A DNA stretch of 35,902 nt from Deltaproteobacteria bacterium (GTDB lineage: Bacteria; Myxococcota_C; UBA6777), in NCBI GenBank assembly GCA_002731275.1, contig PCBK01000178.1:1-35902 (forward strand), in the 5' to 3' direction. Below, one piece after another: positions 246-24,251 of this stretch (its first letter is position 1; each line of letters begins with the position of its first letter). A program made the translations under genes and the position numbers. Under the pieces are notes generated by a model. That model did not search any database. It was not told the DNA's origin and saw nothing but the letters and a program-made list of their open reading frames with translations.

Positions 246-2807
246 TTATAATCGAGGATCGACGCCTTCGGATTCGAGGGCGAGGACACCAAAGACACAC
301 TCGTGGATTTTGCGTAGGGGTTGTCTCTCTACAAAGCGATTGAGCCCTTCGAGACCCAAACAGAACTCTCGAATCGCGAGACTTCTTTTTCTAGAAAGTC
401 CACGTTTACGTAACCTCTTCATATGCTCAGGGAGGGTATACTCCATCCCATAGATAATCCTGAGATACTCCTGACCACGGCATTTCACGGCAGGCTGGAT
501 AATATCTTTCTTATGCCTGACGATAAAGTCGAGCGGCTTGATCACCATCCCTTCTCCACCACGTGAGGTCATCTCTTCCCACCACGCCATGCCTTGTCGA
601 CAGCTCTCCTCATCCTCCACGTCAACAAGCTTATACTTCGTCGACTTAAAGAGTTGAGGACATTCTTTTGCCCACGTCTCAAAGAGCTCCATATGCCAAG
701 TGTGTGGTTTGTCCGTATGGACATGACCTTCTGTCGCCATCAAGTGAAAAGGTGCGAGCTTGTAATCTTCGAGCGATACGACAGACCAGCAATATTGACG
801 ATAGGCTTGCTGATACGATTCAACCAATCCATGACGCTGTTGGATCTGTGACAGCTCCTCCTCAAGTGGAAGACCCCTCTCTACAGCCTTTTGCAAATGT
901 TGTGCTGCATGAGAAAAGCTAGACGCAGCCGCCAATCCCACAGGTGCATATTGTTGCTGTAATAGAACCTGTGCCTTCGCGGACCAGGGCATCAACTCCG
1001 TATCCAGACAACACCAATCCGTCTCAAACGCCTCCCAAAAACCTGTCTGTGTGAGGACATCCTGGACCCGCTCTAAGAAAGCACGCTCCAACGCCGCATC
1101 CTTAAAGAACGGACGCCCTGTCCGTGTATAGCATACGCCAAAGGTCTCATCTTCTATACCAAAGCGCTGTTTTGCAGCCTCCACTGAACGACATATTACG
1201 ATCACAGCTCGTGACCCCATATGCTTCTCTTCACAGATCACCTGCTGCACATCGCGCTTGCGATAATATTGGAAGGCTTTGTCCGGATATTCGAGATACC
1301 CATCCCTCGAAGACGTCTCCGAAGGCGACATCGTCGGAGGGAGATAGATCAACCAGCGTGGATCAACCGCGAAACGACTCATCACCTCAAGCGCCGCAGC
1401 GGCGTTCTCCTCGCGGATCGTTAGATGACGACGCCAACGTGTCTCGATGAGCCTTTTGCCCTGGACATCTTCAATGTGTAAGAGGTCATCATGCTGCTGT
1501 TGGGCAGAGAGGGCTGTCCTCTCCTCTGGAAGAGGGCGGATCGGCTCACAATACACCTGCGCTGCATCGACCTGGACGATCTCACGTTCGGGATAACGCA
1601 ACGCTGAGAGCTTGCCACCAAACACACAGCCCGTGTCGAGACAGAGCGTGTTATTCAGCCACTCCGTATCGGGGACAGGGGTGTGTCCGTACACAACCAT
1701 CGCGCGACCTCTGTATTCAGCGGCCCAATCATACCGGATCGGAAGACCAAATTCATCGGTCTCACCGATCGTCTCACCGTACAACGCAAATTGACGTACA
1801 CGTCCAGATGCTCGACCCTGGTAAGATTCAATCATCCCCGCGTGGGCGACGACGAGCTTCCCATCATCCAAGACATAGTGGCTGATCAGTCCATCGAGGA
1901 ATTCGATAACGCGCTCGCGAAATGCATCTGACTCATGAGACAATTGTTCGATACTCTCAGCGAGTCCGTGTTTGAGCTTGACGTTTTTACCGCGCAGCTT
2001 TTTGATGAGTTTGACGTCGTGGTTCCCTGGAATACAGATGGCTTGGTTGGCCTCAACCATGTCCATGACGAGTCTCAAGACCTCAGGTGTCTTCGGGCCA
2101 CGATCGACGAGGTCACCGAGGAAGATGGCCTTCCGACCTGTTGGAGGCGTGACCTTATATGTCCCGCCAGCCTCCGAAGGCTTGTGTTGAATGTCGTAAT
2201 CGAGCTTCGTGAGGAGCTGGTGCAACTCGTCGAAGCAGCCGTGGATGTCACCGATGATATCAAAGGGGCCGTGTTCATCCTCTTTATCCGTCCACAGACG
2301 CTGACGTTGGATGGTGACGGCATCGACCTCTTCGGGAGAGTTTAGCACGTAGATGTATCGAAATCCCTCTTTCTTTAGGCGTTTGATGGTGCGACGACAT
2401 TGACGGACATGTGTGCTGATGACATGTGGTCCAAATGAACGGTCTTCGCGAGCTTTGTTTCGCTCATGGCAAAGTTTTTCGGGCATATTGAGGACGATCG
2501 CGACGGGTAGACAGTGGAATTGTCGTGCGAGCTGGATGATCGGTTTGCGCGCCTCATCCTGGACGTTGGTCGCGTCGATGACTGTCAGGCGTTTGGCGGC
2601 GAGTCGTTTGGAGGCGACGTAGTGCAGGACATCGAAGGCGTCATTGGTCGCGTCCATATCATTCTCGTCATCACTGACCCAGGCGCGGAAGCGGTCGGAG
2701 GAGAGGACCTCTGTCGGGAGAAAGTGCTTGGCCGCGAAGCTCGACTTTCCCGCACCAGAGGGACCGACGAGGGCGATAAGTGAGAAGGCTGGTAAGGTTA
2801 TTCGCAT
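246..2807 (-). CDS. pnkp: Polynucleotide kinase-phosphatase-ligase (bacterial Pnkp, RNA repair)
   Basis: This is a three-domain RNA end-healing and sealing enzyme, 853 aa, close to the roughly 870 aa of the Clostridium thermocellum enzyme. Residues 1-170 are a 5'-OH polynucleotide kinase with P-loop GPSGAGKSS (15-23, K21 and S22), then D38, R41 and R116. Residues about 180-420 are a metallophosphoesterase with GDIHG (D187, H189), GDLVDRG (D232), GNHD (N262, H263), H322 and GHTP (H375); this 2',3'-phosphatase removes cyclic or 3' phosphates. Residues about 470-853 are a nucleotidyltransferase (ligase) domain with EEKHMGSR, where K528 is the likely AMP-accepting lysine. Key residues of all three domains are visible, so the enzyme should be active. 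It starts inside the hen1 stop region (10-bp overlap), which implies translational coupling. In this family Hen1 2'-O-methylates the repaired end and activates sealing by Pnkp, acting in the cytoplasm after ribotoxin cleavage. Confidence 0.95.
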   Translation of the reverse strand: MRITLPAFSLIALVGPSGAGKSSFAAKHFLPTEVLSSDRFRAWVSDDENDMDATNDAFDVLHYVASKRLAAKRLTVIDATNVQDEARKPIIQLARQFHCLPVAIVLNMPEKLCHERNKAREDRSFGPHVISTHVRQCRRTIKRLKKEGFRYIYVLNSPEEVDAVTIQRQRLWTDKEDEHGPFDIIGDIHGCFDELHQLLTKLDYDIQHKPSEAGGTYKVTPPTGRKAIFLGDLVDRGPKTPEVLRLVMDMVEANQAICIPGNHDVKLIKKLRGKNVKLKHGLAESIEQLSHESDAFRERVIEFLDGLISHYVLDDGKLVVAHAGMIESYQGRASGRVRQFALYGETIGETDEFGLPIRYDWAAEYRGRAMVVYGHTPVPDTEWLNNTLCLDTGCVFGGKLSALRYPEREIVQVDAAQVYCEPIRPLPEERTALSAQQQHDDLLHIEDVQGKRLIETRWRRHLTIREENAAAALEVMSRFAVDPRWLIYLPPTMSPSETSSRDGYLEYPDKAFQYYRKRDVQQVICEEKHMGSRAVIVICRSVEAAKQRFGIEDETFGVCYTRTGRPFFKDAALERAFLERVQDVLTQTGFWEAFETDWCCLDTELMPWSAKAQVLLQQQYAPVGLAAASSFSHAAQHLQKAVERGLPLEEELSQIQQRHGLVESYQQAYRQYCWSVVSLEDYKLAPFHLMATEGHVHTDKPHTWHMELFETWAKECPQLFKSTKYKLVDVEDEESCRQGMAWWEEMTSRGGEGMVIKPLDFIVRHKKDIIQPAVKCRGQEYLRIIYGMEYTLPEHMKRLRKRGLSRKRSLAIREFCLGLEGLNRFVERQPLRKIHECVFGVLALESEGVDPRL

Positions 2808-4195
2808 CGTGTAAAGACCCCCATCTGTGTTGGGCTACCCCATTGTTCGTCAGTATCGCCGATCCCTGTGATCTCGACTGTATAGGAAAAGCGCGCGCAG
2901 ATATCCTCACACCACGCCTTGAATTGGGCACGATCCCACTCAAATCGGTGGTCGCTGTGACGCATCGAACCTTCTTTCATACCCTCAAAGGTCTTGTTGT
3001 ACTCGACGTTCGGTGTGGTGAGGACGACGACACCGGGCCGCGCCTGTTCAAAGACCACGCGGGCAAAGGAGGAGAGACGATTTTCGTCGATGTGTTCGAT
3101 GACCTCGACAATCGCAGCGCCTTCAAAGTTGGCGAAGCGTTGATCTTTATAAGTAAGAGAGGATTGAAAGAGGTCGATACGTGCGCGCATTCTGTCTGTC
3201 ATTTGGTCGAGACGAAGACGTTTGGCGGCGCGTTTAAGGGACTGTGTGGAGATGTCTGTGCCGACGATCTTCTTGAATTGTTTGATCCTGAACAACCTCT
3301 TGAGCAGCTTGCCATCACCACAGCCGAGGTCGATGACCTCTGTGACGCCTGCCTTCTTGAGTGTTTGTGCGACGACATCGAGGCGGTGGTCATGAAGACG
3401 GAGGGTCGTTTGTGTCTCTTCGTCGGCATCTTCTGTGTCTGTTGTTTCCTCTGTGTGGGGGAGCGGCTCATCTTCGAGTCGTTCGAGTGCGCTCTGTGTG
3501 AGCGCGCGTTGGTGGATCAGGTAGCGTCTTGTGATGAGCTCCTTGGCGGGGTGGTCTTCGATCCATCCTTGCCCTGCGGAGAGGAGTTTTTCGACCTCAT
3601 CATGTGAGACCCAGTAGTGTTTTTCGTCGTCAAATACAGGGATCAGGACGTAGAGGTGTTTGAGGAGCATGGAGAGGGTACAGGTGACGTTGAGTGTGAC
3701 GTCGTGGTAGGGGGATGGTCCCCACTCTGGGAAGTTGGGATCGAGCATCCCATGTGTGGCTTCCACCTGATAACCGAGTGGTTCAAACAGACGACGAAGG
3801 AGGCCATCTCCACCTCGACAGGGCAACGTGGGGATGTGGACTTGCCAGGGAAGCGCTTGCTGCGCGAGCTCCGGTTTGGGTTCACAGATCCCTTTGAGGG
3901 CGGAACCAAACATCCGCGCGATCGCAACAGACAAAAAGGAACAGGCTGCGTAGGGGCGATCGTTGACGTAAGGATGTAAGGCGAACTCTTGCCCTTTGTG
4001 TGCACGTCTTACGAGCCCGATGGGGTCGATGTCGAGGAACAGCACAGCGGTTGTCTCTTCATCGCTCGCTTCGGGGAAGAAGACCGTCGCACGACCGAAC
4101 GCCAGCGATTTTGTGTGCAATCGGTCTGGGTGTTTGTAGAGCAGATAGCCCAGATCCCGTGCAGGGGGATGTGTCGTGGTGATGGAAAAGAGCAT
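2798..4195 (-). CDS. hen1: 3'-terminal RNA ribose 2'-O-methyltransferase Hen1
   Basis: Partner of Pnkp in bacterial RNA repair: it methylates the 2'-OH of the 3'-terminal nucleotide at a break before ligation, protecting the repaired RNA from being cut again at the same site. The 465-aa protein has the bacterial Hen1 layout. An N-terminal domain starts MLFSITTTHPP and supports Pnkp ligase activity. After an acidic linker (about 240-262) comes a SAM methyltransferase with DLGCGDG (289-295) and the Hen1 metal site EVIEH (E364, E367, H368), plus H413/H416 in MRHSDHRF. The start at 4195 is chosen because AAGGAG lies 6 nt upstream and the protein then begins like its family; the frame stays open further upstream but that stretch is low complexity. 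The 3' end overlaps pnkp by 10 bp. Confidence 0.95.
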   Translation of the reverse strand: MLFSITTTHPPARDLGYLLYKHPDRLHTKSLAFGRATVFFPEASDEETTAVLFLDIDPIGLVRRAHKGQEFALHPYVNDRPYAACSFLSVAIARMFGSALKGICEPKPELAQQALPWQVHIPTLPCRGGDGLLRRLFEPLGYQVEATHGMLDPNFPEWGPSPYHDVTLNVTCTLSMLLKHLYVLIPVFDDEKHYWVSHDEVEKLLSAGQGWIEDHPAKELITRRYLIHQRALTQSALERLEDEPLPHTEETTDTEDADEETQTTLRLHDHRLDVVAQTLKKAGVTEVIDLGCGDGKLLKRLFRIKQFKKIVGTDISTQSLKRAAKRLRLDQMTDRMRARIDLFQSSLTYKDQRFANFEGAAIVEVIEHIDENRLSSFARVVFEQARPGVVVLTTPNVEYNKTFEGMKEGSMRHSDHRFEWDRAQFKAWCEDICARFSYTVEITGIGDTDEQWGSPTQMGVFTRCE

Positions 4196-21288: not shown

Positions 21289-21915
21289 ATGCGATTGATA
21301 TGGAGGAGTGTGGGGGGGCTTGTCGTGGTCTTGCTGATCGCCTGGGTTGCAGCGCTGAATGCCCCTTCTGAGCAGTCTTTGGGCACAGGCATCAGGTTGG
21401 TTTACATCCACGTGGGGTTGATTTGGGTGGGGCTGCTTGGAATCACCGTGGCCGGGCTGTGTGGTCTTGTTGCGCTAGCCTTTGCGTCGCCGTGGTCTGA
21501 GCGTTGGTTGGGACCGCTTGCGTGGGTGGGGTTGGGGATGTTCATTGCGGGGTTTCTCTTCAGTATGCCCGCAGCGAGTGTCAATTGGGGGGCGATTTTT
21601 TGGGCTGAACCGCGGTATTTTGCGATCTCACTGGCGATCTGTGTGGGACTGCTCACACAGGCTGCTTACGGATGGCTCCCGTGGTTGCGTGCGAAGGGAG
21701 CGATACAAGCGGGATATGCGTTGTACGTGACCTTCTCGATCCTCCTCACGCCGTTGGTCTTGCACCCAAGGAATCCCGCATTTCAGGATGGTTCGGGGCT
21801 GATCCCTTACTTCTTTGTGGGGTTCTTTTTGTTGTTTTTGTCCTACGCGGTGTGGTTGGTGTGGTCGATTTCACAGTGGCTTCAAGAGGATATGGGAGGT
21901 GTCGAGAATGGATAA
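21289..21915 (+). CDS. Divergent CcmC/CcsA-like heme-handling membrane protein
   Basis: 208 aa with about six hydrophobic helices. GIRLVYIHVGLIWVGLLG resembles the first His-containing helix of CcmC (RxxYxHVPxAW). The central NWGAIFWAEPRYFAISL sits where cytochrome-c assembly proteins have the Trp-rich WWxWDxRLTS heme-binding loop, and LTPLVLHPRNP could supply the second His. The Trp motif is clearly altered, so it is not a standard CcmC. No other ccm genes are present; instead its stop overlaps the start of a sirohydrochlorin chelatase gene by 8 bp, hinting at tetrapyrrole handling. The start at 21289 has AAGGAG 8 nt upstream. Alternatives: an unrelated polytopic protein with chance similarity. 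Confidence 0.6.
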   Translation: MRLIWRSVGGLVVVLLIAWVAALNAPSEQSLGTGIRLVYIHVGLIWVGLLGITVAGLCGLVALAFASPWSERWLGPLAWVGLGMFIAGFLFSMPAASVNWGAIFWAEPRYFAISLAICVGLLTQAAYGWLPWLRAKGAIQAGYALYVTFSILLTPLVLHPRNPAFQDGSGLIPYFFVGFFLLFLSYAVWLVWSISQWLQEDMGGVENG

Positions 21916-22309
21916 CACAGCGCTAATTGTGGTCGATCATGGTAGTCGACGAGAAGCCTCCAATGCGATGCTCGAATGTCTTACAGGACTCGTCGCGAAG
22001 CTCTCTGAGACGCGATATCACTATGTGACCTATGCACATATGGAGTTGGCACCTCCGACGATCGACGAAGCCGTTCAATTATGTGTGGAGCAGGGGGCGA
22101 CGAAGATCGTGTTGGCGTTGTTTTTCCTGGGACCTGGGAGGCACGCACGTGAGGACATCCCACGGATGGCCAAAGAAGCCTCTGAAAAGTACGGCGTTGA
22201 GGTCCTGGTGACAGCACCTTTGGGCACGGATGAACGCATCGCACGTTTGCTTTTGCAGCGCGCTGAAGAGGTGCTTGGTGGGGATGGAGGGGACTTTATT
22301 GTTTGTTGA
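21908..22309 (+). CDS. Short sirohydrochlorin chelatase (SirB/CbiX type)
   Basis: 133-aa single-domain class II chelatase that inserts Fe or Co into sirohydrochlorin, for siroheme or early cobalamin. Metal-binding motifs VVDHGSRR (H11) and FFLGPGRHAREDIP (H79) are intact, and AHMELAPPTIDEAV plus VTAPLGTDERI match the short SirB-like group. GGAGG precedes the start by 8 nt, and the gene overlaps the CcmC-like stop by 8 bp. At its 3' end it overlaps the convergent radical SAM gene by 14 bp. Fe versus Co cannot be decided. Confidence 0.85.
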   Translation: MDNTALIVVDHGSRREASNAMLECLTGLVAKLSETRYHYVTYAHMELAPPTIDEAVQLCVEQGATKIVLALFFLGPGRHAREDIPRMAKEASEKYGVEVLVTAPLGTDERIARLLLQRAEEVLGGDGGDFIVC

Positions 22310-23678
22310 GGCGTTCTTTGATGGTGTCTTGATCAAAAGCCGCCTTCACCTTTGTGTCGAGTGAGAGGACGTCTTGGATGGGGATTCCAAGGATCGTTGG
22401 GGTGTCTGCTTCACCTTCTGGGATATCTTCGACGATCACTTCGAAGCGTCCGTTGTCGAAGGGGATGCCTGGGGCTTGCTCGACCTTCTCGATGCGTTCG
22501 CGTTTACCTTGCTCCTCAAACTGAAGCGCTCTGTGAATACAGTAAGGGTTGTTGCCTGGTTTGGCGAACAGGGAGTGGGAGGTCCAGCTACAACCGGCCT
22601 TACAGATGTCGCCGTAGTAACAAGTTTTACAGTAGCCCCAAAGATCATCACGTGTGCGTTCGCGGAACATCTTCAGTTGTGGGCTGTTGGCGACGACATC
22701 TTTCAGTTTGTCAGTGCGGAAGTTCCCACCTGTGTAAGGGACAGATTGCAAGGACGGGCAGCCTTTGATCTTGCCATCAGCTTCCAGACCAAGGGTCCAT
22801 TTTCCTGCTGAGCATCCAGCCCAGTGTGCGCCGAGATCTCCACCGTATCGCAGAAGGTGCTCATAGGGACCGAAGTAACCGATATTGTTACCGGGGAAGA
22901 TCTGGATGCCGTTGGGATCGAGCTTGTTTTGTTTGATCCACACGAGCAGTGGAAAGAGTTCGAGGAGGTCGTAAGGTTGGGGGAGTAAGTCTGGGCGATC
23001 TGCGGCGCGTCCCATCGCGACAGTGAGTTGGAGCTGCCATGCACGTGAGTTCAACTCTATCAAGAGGTCAGCGAGAGCGGGCAGCTCAGGCATGGAGAGG
23101 CGATTGATCTGTGTGTTGGTCGCGAGGCGGATGTCGGTCTCGGAGACGCGCTTTGCGGCGTCGATGGCGGCACGCCATGAACCCTTTGCGCCACGGATGG
23201 AGTCATGTGTTTGTTCGAGTCCATCGATGGAGATGGAGATCGTCTTGAGGCCAGCTTCGACGGCCTGGTCGACGCGTCTTTGATCGAGGTTACGCGCACC
23301 TGTTGTCATCCCACAGGACATGCCCATACGAGTGACCTCTTTGGCGATGATCGGCCAGTCTTCACGTAGGTAGGCTTCGCCGCCGATCAGGGTGACTTCT
23401 CGTACACCAATATCGGCGAGCTGATGGACGACATCGAGACACTCCTCTGTGCTCAGCTCTTGGCTGCGGATTTTGCCGGCGCGTGAGCCACAGTGACGAC
23501 ATCCAAGGTCACAGCGAAGGGTGATCTCCCATACTGCATAGAGCGGGTGGGGATTGTCCCAGTCGATATCTTGTGGGGTTCTGTAGAGATGCTTTGGGTT
23601 ACCGTCGTAGTCCTTTTCTTTTTGTTCTTTTTTGTCTGGTACGGCACCAATCGGGGGGGCTGTATGTTGCTTCTCCAT
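22296..23678 (-). CDS. Radical SAM/SPASM enzyme, candidate peptide maturase
   Basis: 460 aa. Residues about 46-260 form a radical SAM domain with the cluster motif CDLGCRHC (C56, C60, C63) and TLIGGEAYL, the SAM-binding GGE. Residues 289-380 form a SPASM domain with seven cysteines (C289, C307, C350, C353, C359, C363, C380) for auxiliary Fe-S clusters. SPASM enzymes typically modify ribosomally made peptides or proteins (thioethers, C-C or C-O crosslinks) in the cytoplasm. The start at 23678 is set by GGAG 5 nt upstream; the open frame extends 333 nt further but there it runs antisense-like through the neighbour. It lies 43 nt after the gene for a protein with two YGIP repeats, the natural candidate substrate. 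Its N-terminus (APPIGAVPDKK) faintly echoes the end of that protein (PPYGIPPDK). Probably expressed from the FNR-box promoter at 24842. Confidence 0.9.
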   Translation of the reverse strand: MEKQHTAPPIGAVPDKKEQKEKDYDGNPKHLYRTPQDIDWDNPHPLYAVWEITLRCDLGCRHCGSRAGKIRSQELSTEECLDVVHQLADIGVREVTLIGGEAYLREDWPIIAKEVTRMGMSCGMTTGARNLDQRRVDQAVEAGLKTISISIDGLEQTHDSIRGAKGSWRAAIDAAKRVSETDIRLATNTQINRLSMPELPALADLLIELNSRAWQLQLTVAMGRAADRPDLLPQPYDLLELFPLLVWIKQNKLDPNGIQIFPGNNIGYFGPYEHLLRYGGDLGAHWAGCSAGKWTLGLEADGKIKGCPSLQSVPYTGGNFRTDKLKDVVANSPQLKMFRERTRDDLWGYCKTCYYGDICKAGCSWTSHSLFAKPGNNPYCIHRALQFEEQGKRERIEKVEQAPGIPFDNGRFEVIVEDIPEGEADTPTILGIPIQDVLSLDTKVKAAFDQDTIKERLNKQ

Positions 23679-23721
23679 AAGGGCTCCATAACGAAGTGTA
23701 TAGGATGTTTGTGGGGAGGAC

Positions 23722-24099
23722 TTACTTATCTGGAGGGATACCATATGGAGGTTGCGCACCTGCGTCGGCCGCTTTTTCTGTCTCTGTGGGTTTCTCTTCG
23801 AGCTGCTCGGCGGGGATACCGTAAGCTGGTTGGACGCTCGCGTCCTGGACTTGTTCGTTGTTATTCGGGCCATCTCCACATGCGGTGAACATGGAAAAGC
23901 CGAGCAGAGATGCTGCGAGCAGCGCCCCACGACCTGTTGCGAGCGCGCGTGTTTTTTGTAGGACGCCATCTGATGGGGTGGAGGAGGTAAGTGTGGCGCC
24001 ACAAAAATCACAGGAGGAGGTCTCTTCTTGTACCTTGATATGTGCCTGACAGGAGGGGCATTTGCCTAGCCCATGCCGTGAAGTGGGAAGCTGTGTCAT
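23722..24099 (-). CDS. Zinc-ribbon / membrane or lipoprotein with two C-terminal YGIP repeats; candidate radical SAM substrate
   Basis: 125 aa in three parts. Residues 14-33 form a zinc ribbon (C14, C17, C30, C33; CPSC...CDFC). Residues about 57-74 are hydrophobic after two arginines and end in MFTACGDG, lipobox-like with C74, so the tail may be exported or lipid-anchored. The tail (75-125) is flexible and acidic and carries two copies of a 14-residue unit, DASVQPAYGIPAEQ (86-99) and DAGAQPPYGIPPDK (112-125), the second at the very C-terminus. AAGGA lies 9 nt before the ATG. The start overlaps the small upstream ORF by 4 nt (ATGA), and the radical SAM/SPASM gene follows after 43 nt. I infer a modification substrate with Y-G-I-P as the core. 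An alternative is a structural lipoprotein that merely shares the operon. Confidence 0.8.
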   Translation of the reverse strand: MTQLPTSRHGLGKCPSCQAHIKVQEETSSCDFCGATLTSSTPSDGVLQKTRALATGRGALLAASLLGFSMFTACGDGPNNNEQVQDASVQPAYGIPAEQLEEKPTETEKAADAGAQPPYGIPPDK

Positions 24100-24251
24100 G
24101 ATCTACATTCCTTTTGTTGTCCATTGAGATAGATGTCTGCATTGTACTCATCTTGTGGGCTGAGGACAATCTTTGTGATGTTGTAGGGGAGCTGAGGAAG
24201 TTGTCGGAGGAGGGGATTATCGGTCGGAGAGCGTTCTTTGAGTGGTCTCAA
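24096..24251 (-). CDS. Small ORF (51 codons) coupled to CBS gene and YGIP protein
   Basis: Reading the minus strand from TTG at 24251 gives 51 codons with good amino-acid texture, for example LPYNITKIVLSPQDEYNADI near the C-terminus. It overlaps both neighbours: its TTG shares bases with the TGA of the CBS gene, and its TGA shares ATGA with the next start. No ATG/GTG start and no strong ribosome-binding site are present, so translation would depend on coupling. It fills the whole gap between the two genes without a stop, which favours a real gene. Function unknown; an accessory peptide for the radical SAM system is one possibility. Confidence 0.45.
   Translation of the reverse strand: MRPLKERSPTDNPLLRQLPQLPYNITKIVLSPQDEYNADIYLNGQQKECRS

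Follow-up and report, generated by a model that had tools for sequence, protein, structure and literature searches.

A radical SAM/SPASM enzyme beside a zinc-ribbon lipoprotein with X-Tyr-Gly repeats: a predicted splicing pair found mainly in Myxococcota-like bacteria

The window, by which we mean the whole stretch of 35,902 nucleotides of contig PCBK01000178.1 that was analysed, carries on its minus strand the gene of a short lipoprotein and, 43 bp beyond it, that of a radical SAM/SPASM enzyme (Table 1). The lipoprotein is composed of a zinc ribbon, a hydrophobic stretch running to Cys74 and two 14-residue YGIP units, the second placed exactly at the C-terminus of the 125-aa protein, as the original prediction had described it. 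Its two sites, AYG and PYG, show the X-Y-G feature of spliceotide substrates. Its hydrophobic segment ends in FTAC, in agreement with a lipobox ([AGS]C); the long n-region holding the zinc ribbon is unusual for a bacterial lipoprotein. For the enzyme we used the 460-aa frame from the ATG at 23678; a 571-aa ORF starting at 24011 was discarded as a mechanical extension running into the lipoprotein gene. Past the enzyme gene lies, on the plus strand, a CbiX-like chelatase gene (21815-22309), which converges with the enzyme gene and overlaps it by about 14 bases, and a gene for a CBS-domain protein precedes the pair. Neither neighbour seems to belong to the system, and no small partner gene was apparent among the ORFs beside the pair.

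Table 1. Features of the lipoprotein-enzyme gene pair in the window.
Feature	Positions	Strand	Basis
Substrate candidate, lipoprotein of 125 aa with a zinc ribbon and two X-Y-G sites	23722..24099	-	ORF and residues
Zinc ribbon CPSC...CDFC, Cys 14, 17, 30 and 33; proposed docking element/leader	24001..24060	-	Cys invariant in A3 and A5
Hydrophobic segment with lipobox-like FTAC (Cys74)	23878..23922	-	Cys in 84/84 relatives
Repeat unit 1, DASVQPAYGIPAEQ, residues 86-99; AYG site at 23818-23826	23803..23844	-	Sequence
Repeat unit 2, DAGAQPPYGIPPDK, residues 112-125, C-terminus; PYG site at 23740-23748	23725..23766	-	Sequence
Predicted splicease (radical SAM/SPASM enzyme), 460 aa	22296..23678	-	Pfam Radical_SAM and SPASM
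CxxxCxxC for the SAM [4Fe-4S] cluster, Cys 56, 60 and 63	23490..23513	-	Invariant
SPASM region, seven Cys (289-380); two auxiliary clusters expected	22539..22814	-	Invariant

The ten cysteines by which the enzyme had been recognised as a SPASM protein, namely Cys 56, 60 and 63 and the SPASM Cys 289, 307, 350, 353, 359, 363 and 380, were invariant among 34 homologues. Against curated models the enzyme scored 486 bits with TIGR04103 (nif11-class peptide radical SAM maturase 3), which we take to be the same family as IPR026482 and to which it is homologous over the whole rSAM/SPASM length, and 478 bits with TIGR03913 (GDL-motif peptide, DUF1843 maturase). As the cut-offs are 725 and 592, respectively, the enzyme was filed as an equivalog of neither family, and the DUF1843 neighbour that goes with the latter was also missing. 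TIGR04133 (rSAM_w_lipo), a rSAM/SPASM family associated with lipoproteins by name, was distant (163 bits, cut-off 425). Judged from sequence, the window enzyme is a sister group of TIGR04103 and TIGR03913 and falls outside the TIGR04103 clade on a tree built by a quick method, with SH-aLRT support values and no bootstrap. A TIGR04103 profile search of 386 genomes brought no genomes beyond those already in the set. The structure model of the enzyme (pLDDT 86.6) matched the folds of SkfB, PqqE and SuiB best in Foldseek; its first 25 or so residues were disordered and no obvious recognition domain was seen. Sequence and Foldseek searches of solved structures found no splicease, the matches being other radical SAM enzymes.

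In order to collect relatives of the pair, 84,980 genomes were scanned with six homologous enzymes, which yielded 80 loci, mostly from Myxococcota-like bacteria and some from Alphaproteobacteria, Acidobacteriota and Burkholderiales. The pairing of a maturase with a repeated-core substrate, on which the original prediction rested, recurred among them: a zinc-ribbon lipoprotein lay at most 180 bp from the enzyme in 54 of the 80 loci, and 48 of these 54 carried YGx1-2P in the tail, so that homologues of the SPASM enzyme do not consistently lack a YGxP neighbour (48 of 80 loci). Several zinc-ribbon lipoprotein genes were present at 22 of the 80 loci, and lipoprotein and enzyme were on the same strand in 81 of 82 cases. 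We rejected a chance repeat, since the tails of 89 homologous zinc-ribbon ORFs contained 192 YGx1-2P motifs versus 7.3 expected by shuffling (maximum 16 in 500 shuffles), and since their density of 17.6 per 1000 aa was about 150-fold that in the remaining long ORFs at these loci (0.12). Glycine followed 203 of the 230 tail tyrosines, with the site consensus [VI]-x-P-L-Y-G-[AGL]-P-P, in which X was mostly Leu and then Ala, Met, Val or Arg. The zinc ribbon and lipobox-like segment were likewise borne out: the hydrophobic segment, usually preceded by positive charge, ended in Cys in all 84 lipoprotein relatives, with Gly, Ala or Ser at position -1 in 81 of them. Among 80 YG-bearing lipoproteins, YG always stood C-terminal of the lipobox Cys and never before it. 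In four lipoproteins (L082, L090, L101 and L103) Y-[SAR] took the place of YG, as I/V-Y-[SAR]-A near the C-terminus, possibly a relaxed target site.

The zinc ribbon was the only reliable part of the lipoprotein structure model (residues 11-40, pLDDT 81-91), and it gave weak Foldseek matches to zinc fingers. A profile built from the lipoprotein zinc ribbons only also detected C-terminal zinc-ribbon fusions in TIGR03913-type enzymes (L057, L066, L084, L100, L102, L105, L106 and L108), an N-terminal fusion in one enzyme (L104) and small separate ORFs with a zinc ribbon that lie at the end of the enzyme gene or behind it (L053, L062, L067 and L088). On the enzyme tree the fused forms grouped in one clade (SH-aLRT 95) and those with the zinc ribbon on an ORF of its own in a second (SH-aLRT 96). 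Both clades belong to the same section as the window enzyme; the Nif11/GG/MYG-repeat enzymes have no zinc ribbon and formed a separate clade (SH-aLRT 100). That the zinc ribbon can sit on the substrate, be part of the enzyme or stand alone fits a portable docking module, and we somewhat favour the view that the zinc ribbon docks the lipoprotein on the enzyme in place of a leader and recognition pair. As a recognition element it would explain how enzymes that have no recognition domain find their substrates, and it would offer a compact tag with which splicing could be directed to chosen proteins. L104 is on a plasmid of Tropicibacter oceani, where the cluster also contains other radical SAM genes and genes for a trypsin-like and an M23 peptidase.

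To avoid selection by substrate, 20 neighbourhoods were picked by enzyme similarity alone. An X-Y-G partner was present in 17 of them on hand inspection, which is laxer than the lipoprotein counts, as single YG motifs close to a gene are not uncommon. Ten of these partners were zinc-ribbon proteins with ACYG, and four were peptides in which a leader-GG was followed by xYG[LI]PP; the other three were a protein with five repeats of MYG type, a protein with four copies of MRYGLRPP and a tail-anchored protein bearing four YG[AM]P. A further neighbourhood showed a GG-SARYALPPP variant. Outside this sample, the partners were DUF1843 peptides with PYG, IYG-bearing NHLP-like proteins and pairs of MYGV proteins. 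By sequence, X-Y-G is the element common to unrelated partner architectures (Nif11, GG-leader, DUF1843 and MYG repeats). The Nostoc TIGR04103 enzyme (853 bits) likewise adjoins a Nif11 precursor ending in GGRGSIALYGLPPELF (ALYGLPPELF). Several DUF1843 peptides near zinc-ribbon-fused TIGR03913-type maturases (L106, L108, L105, L084, L100 and L102) had PYG near the N-terminus, and the presence of PYG beside these 'GDL motif' maturases with a C-terminal zinc ribbon suggests that DUF1843 peptides are splicease substrates too.

Individual neighbourhoods showed further features. Throughout one enzyme clade (L011, L013, L014, L138, L141, L144, L147, L149-L152 and L154) the partners have YG directly after the lipobox Cys (ACYG), and some of these partners then bore a MopE-type metal-binding motif (PF11617 in L014). 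The short GG-leader peptides with xYG[LI]PP were next to the enzyme in L137, L139, L140 and L143; in L139 and L140 a 423-aa ORF, LanC-like by eye, came after the enzyme. The tail-anchored protein with four YG[AM]P (L156, 4480-5031) lay downstream of the enzyme and had a C-terminal membrane anchor and no zinc ribbon. In a sister-genus genome (L012, on contig C26 of G003), a near-TIGR04103 enzyme (691 bits) was followed by two tandem proteins of about 100 aa (LSNYGYP...FVPWSNIAY) and preceded by a 280-aa protein with repeated QAMYGVIMPG (feature coordinates 667-960, 1061-1444 and 2752-3594). By sequence, this locus has the look of a classical spliceotide system with many sites and PlpY-like partners.

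PlpX, a member of one SPASM subclass (IPR026482), cuts tyramine out at Xaa-Tyr-Gly (PMC11002830). MYG and LYG are both processed by PlpXY, and splice tags of the form GGPIRP-x-YGLPI, e.g. PIRPLYGLPI, have been described (PMC10533398); several splices are possible per precursor (PMC10373908). The window pair resembles the Pleurocapsa PlpXY system in the kind of SPASM enzyme, the X-Tyr-Gly target, the several sites per substrate and the Pro-rich context, a likeness judged through the TIGR04103 model and the X-Y-G target. In contrast, the substrate of PlpXY is a peptide with a Nif11/NHLP leader whereas that of the window would be a zinc-ribbon lipoprotein, the window enzyme belongs to a sister clade and no PlpY-like gene was found with it. 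No such gene was found beside the other zinc-ribbon enzymes either, when the query was a PlpY-like candidate family taken from L012, L153 and L155; this family, with a conserved FVPWxN, occurred only in those three loci, which are in the Nif11/GG/MYG-repeat clade. Compared with the homologous TIGR03913 enzymes, whose C-terminal zinc ribbon resembles that of the lipoprotein, the window system has its zinc ribbon on the substrate.

Taken with these likenesses, the pair is probably a two-gene splicing system of the PlpX kind, in which tyramine would be excised at each XYG. The score of the enzyme with TIGR04103, whose Nostoc member adjoins the LYGLPPELF-ending precursor, argues for splicing, as do the recurrence of the gene pair, the X-Y-G partners in 17 of the 20 enzyme-chosen neighbourhoods and the placing of every YG after the lipobox Cys. 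Its position below the TIGR04103 cut-off and outside that clade argues against it, together with the failure to find a PlpY-like partner and with the four relatives that read YS, YA or YR and not YG. ACYG is also hard to reconcile with lipidation of an already spliced protein, because splicing would alter the residue to be lipidated. In the proposed sequence of events, the zinc ribbon of the lipoprotein would dock on the enzyme in the cytoplasm, and tyramine would then be removed at each XYG with a loss of 135 Da per site. After export, signal peptidase II would cut off the zinc ribbon like a leader and lipidate Cys74, and the membrane-anchored tail with its electrophilic ketoamides would act outside the cell, most plausibly on proteases. 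Proteases are proposed as the target because spliced peptides inhibit proteases (PMC10373908, citing Scott 2022). Protease inhibition at the cell surface may be the likeliest use of the tails, but as an assignment it is doubtful.

A different chemistry at the YG site that evolved from splicing, e.g. epimerisation, thioether formation or backbone cleavage, would suit zinc-ribbon clades that score below the TIGR04103 cut-off and sites reading YA, YS or CYG; with an X-Y-G target identical to that of the TIGR04103 clade and all the radical SAM and SPASM cysteines kept, we consider it unlikely. The original prediction had proposed a Tyr-based crosslink, which as a cyclophane or ether would cost 2 Da per YGxP unit. 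SPASM peptide maturases often crosslink aromatic residues, and the window enzyme shares its fold with SkfB, PqqE and SuiB, but the unit offers no constant partner side chain: the residue after YG was Ala in 68 and Gly in 52 of 203 sites, and where Gly stands there is no side chain to crosslink. In addition, the nearest named enzyme family adjoins X-Y-G precursors of the splicease type, and the target has the form of a PlpX-type splice site, so that the crosslink was given up as the leading reading and now appears quite improbable. That the lipoprotein is not a substrate, in which case YGxP would serve in binding or be mere low-complexity sequence and the enzyme would act on something else, would agree with the low-complexity, D/T/P-rich tails, but it is very hard to reconcile with the 150-fold enrichment, the shared strand and the recurrence of YG as the common denominator of many unrelated partners beside this enzyme clade.

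Through spliceases, ribosomal proteins acquire beta-amino acids and reactive ketoamides, and Scott et al. 2022 (Chem) reportedly covers 939 predicted systems under the words 'peptides and proteins'. To call the system undescribed, as had been done, was too strong in that both this kind of enzyme and the reaction, though rare, are known; what may be new is the branch acting on zinc-ribbon lipoproteins, though it is perhaps already listed in Scott 2022 or Richter 2024 (Chem Sci). In the literature searched, to which these two papers did not belong, we found no report of zinc-ribbon lipoprotein substrates and none of YGVP together with a radical SAM/SPASM enzyme. The relatives provide a large natural set of predicted membrane-anchored splicease substrates with one to five sites each, and the predicted lipoprotein splicing seems meant to yield exported proteins and not small natural products. 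Tentatively, the loci could represent a widespread unreported system, mainly of Myxococcota-like bacteria, in which lipoproteins with a zinc-ribbon leader would be tyramine-spliced at one to five X-Y-G sites, lose the leader to signal peptidase II and display beta-amino-acid ketoamide tails on the membrane. The zinc ribbon would then be a new portable recognition module, exchanged among substrates, enzymes and free-standing proteins.

The genome of the window and its phylum were also searched. A search for the YGIP pattern in the DNA of the whole genome was uninformative, giving 56 matches versus 25 with the reversed control, most of them in unrelated places. With the lipoprotein profile, five genomes of the phylum were covered, a small sample in which full-length matches occurred only in the two enzyme-bearing genomes and the other three gave only weak partial zinc-ribbon matches. 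A phylum-wide search with this profile scored 31 candidates per genome at its first look, and its absence counts carry little weight. In the window genome, five proteins matched the zinc-ribbon/lipobox profile over their full length: the window lipoprotein, one protein beside a second copy of the enzyme (contig C8) and three whose contigs (C121, C40 and C69) had no enzyme match. These three end in YGLPP tails, have two or three YG[ILV]P sites apiece and are presumably served in trans.
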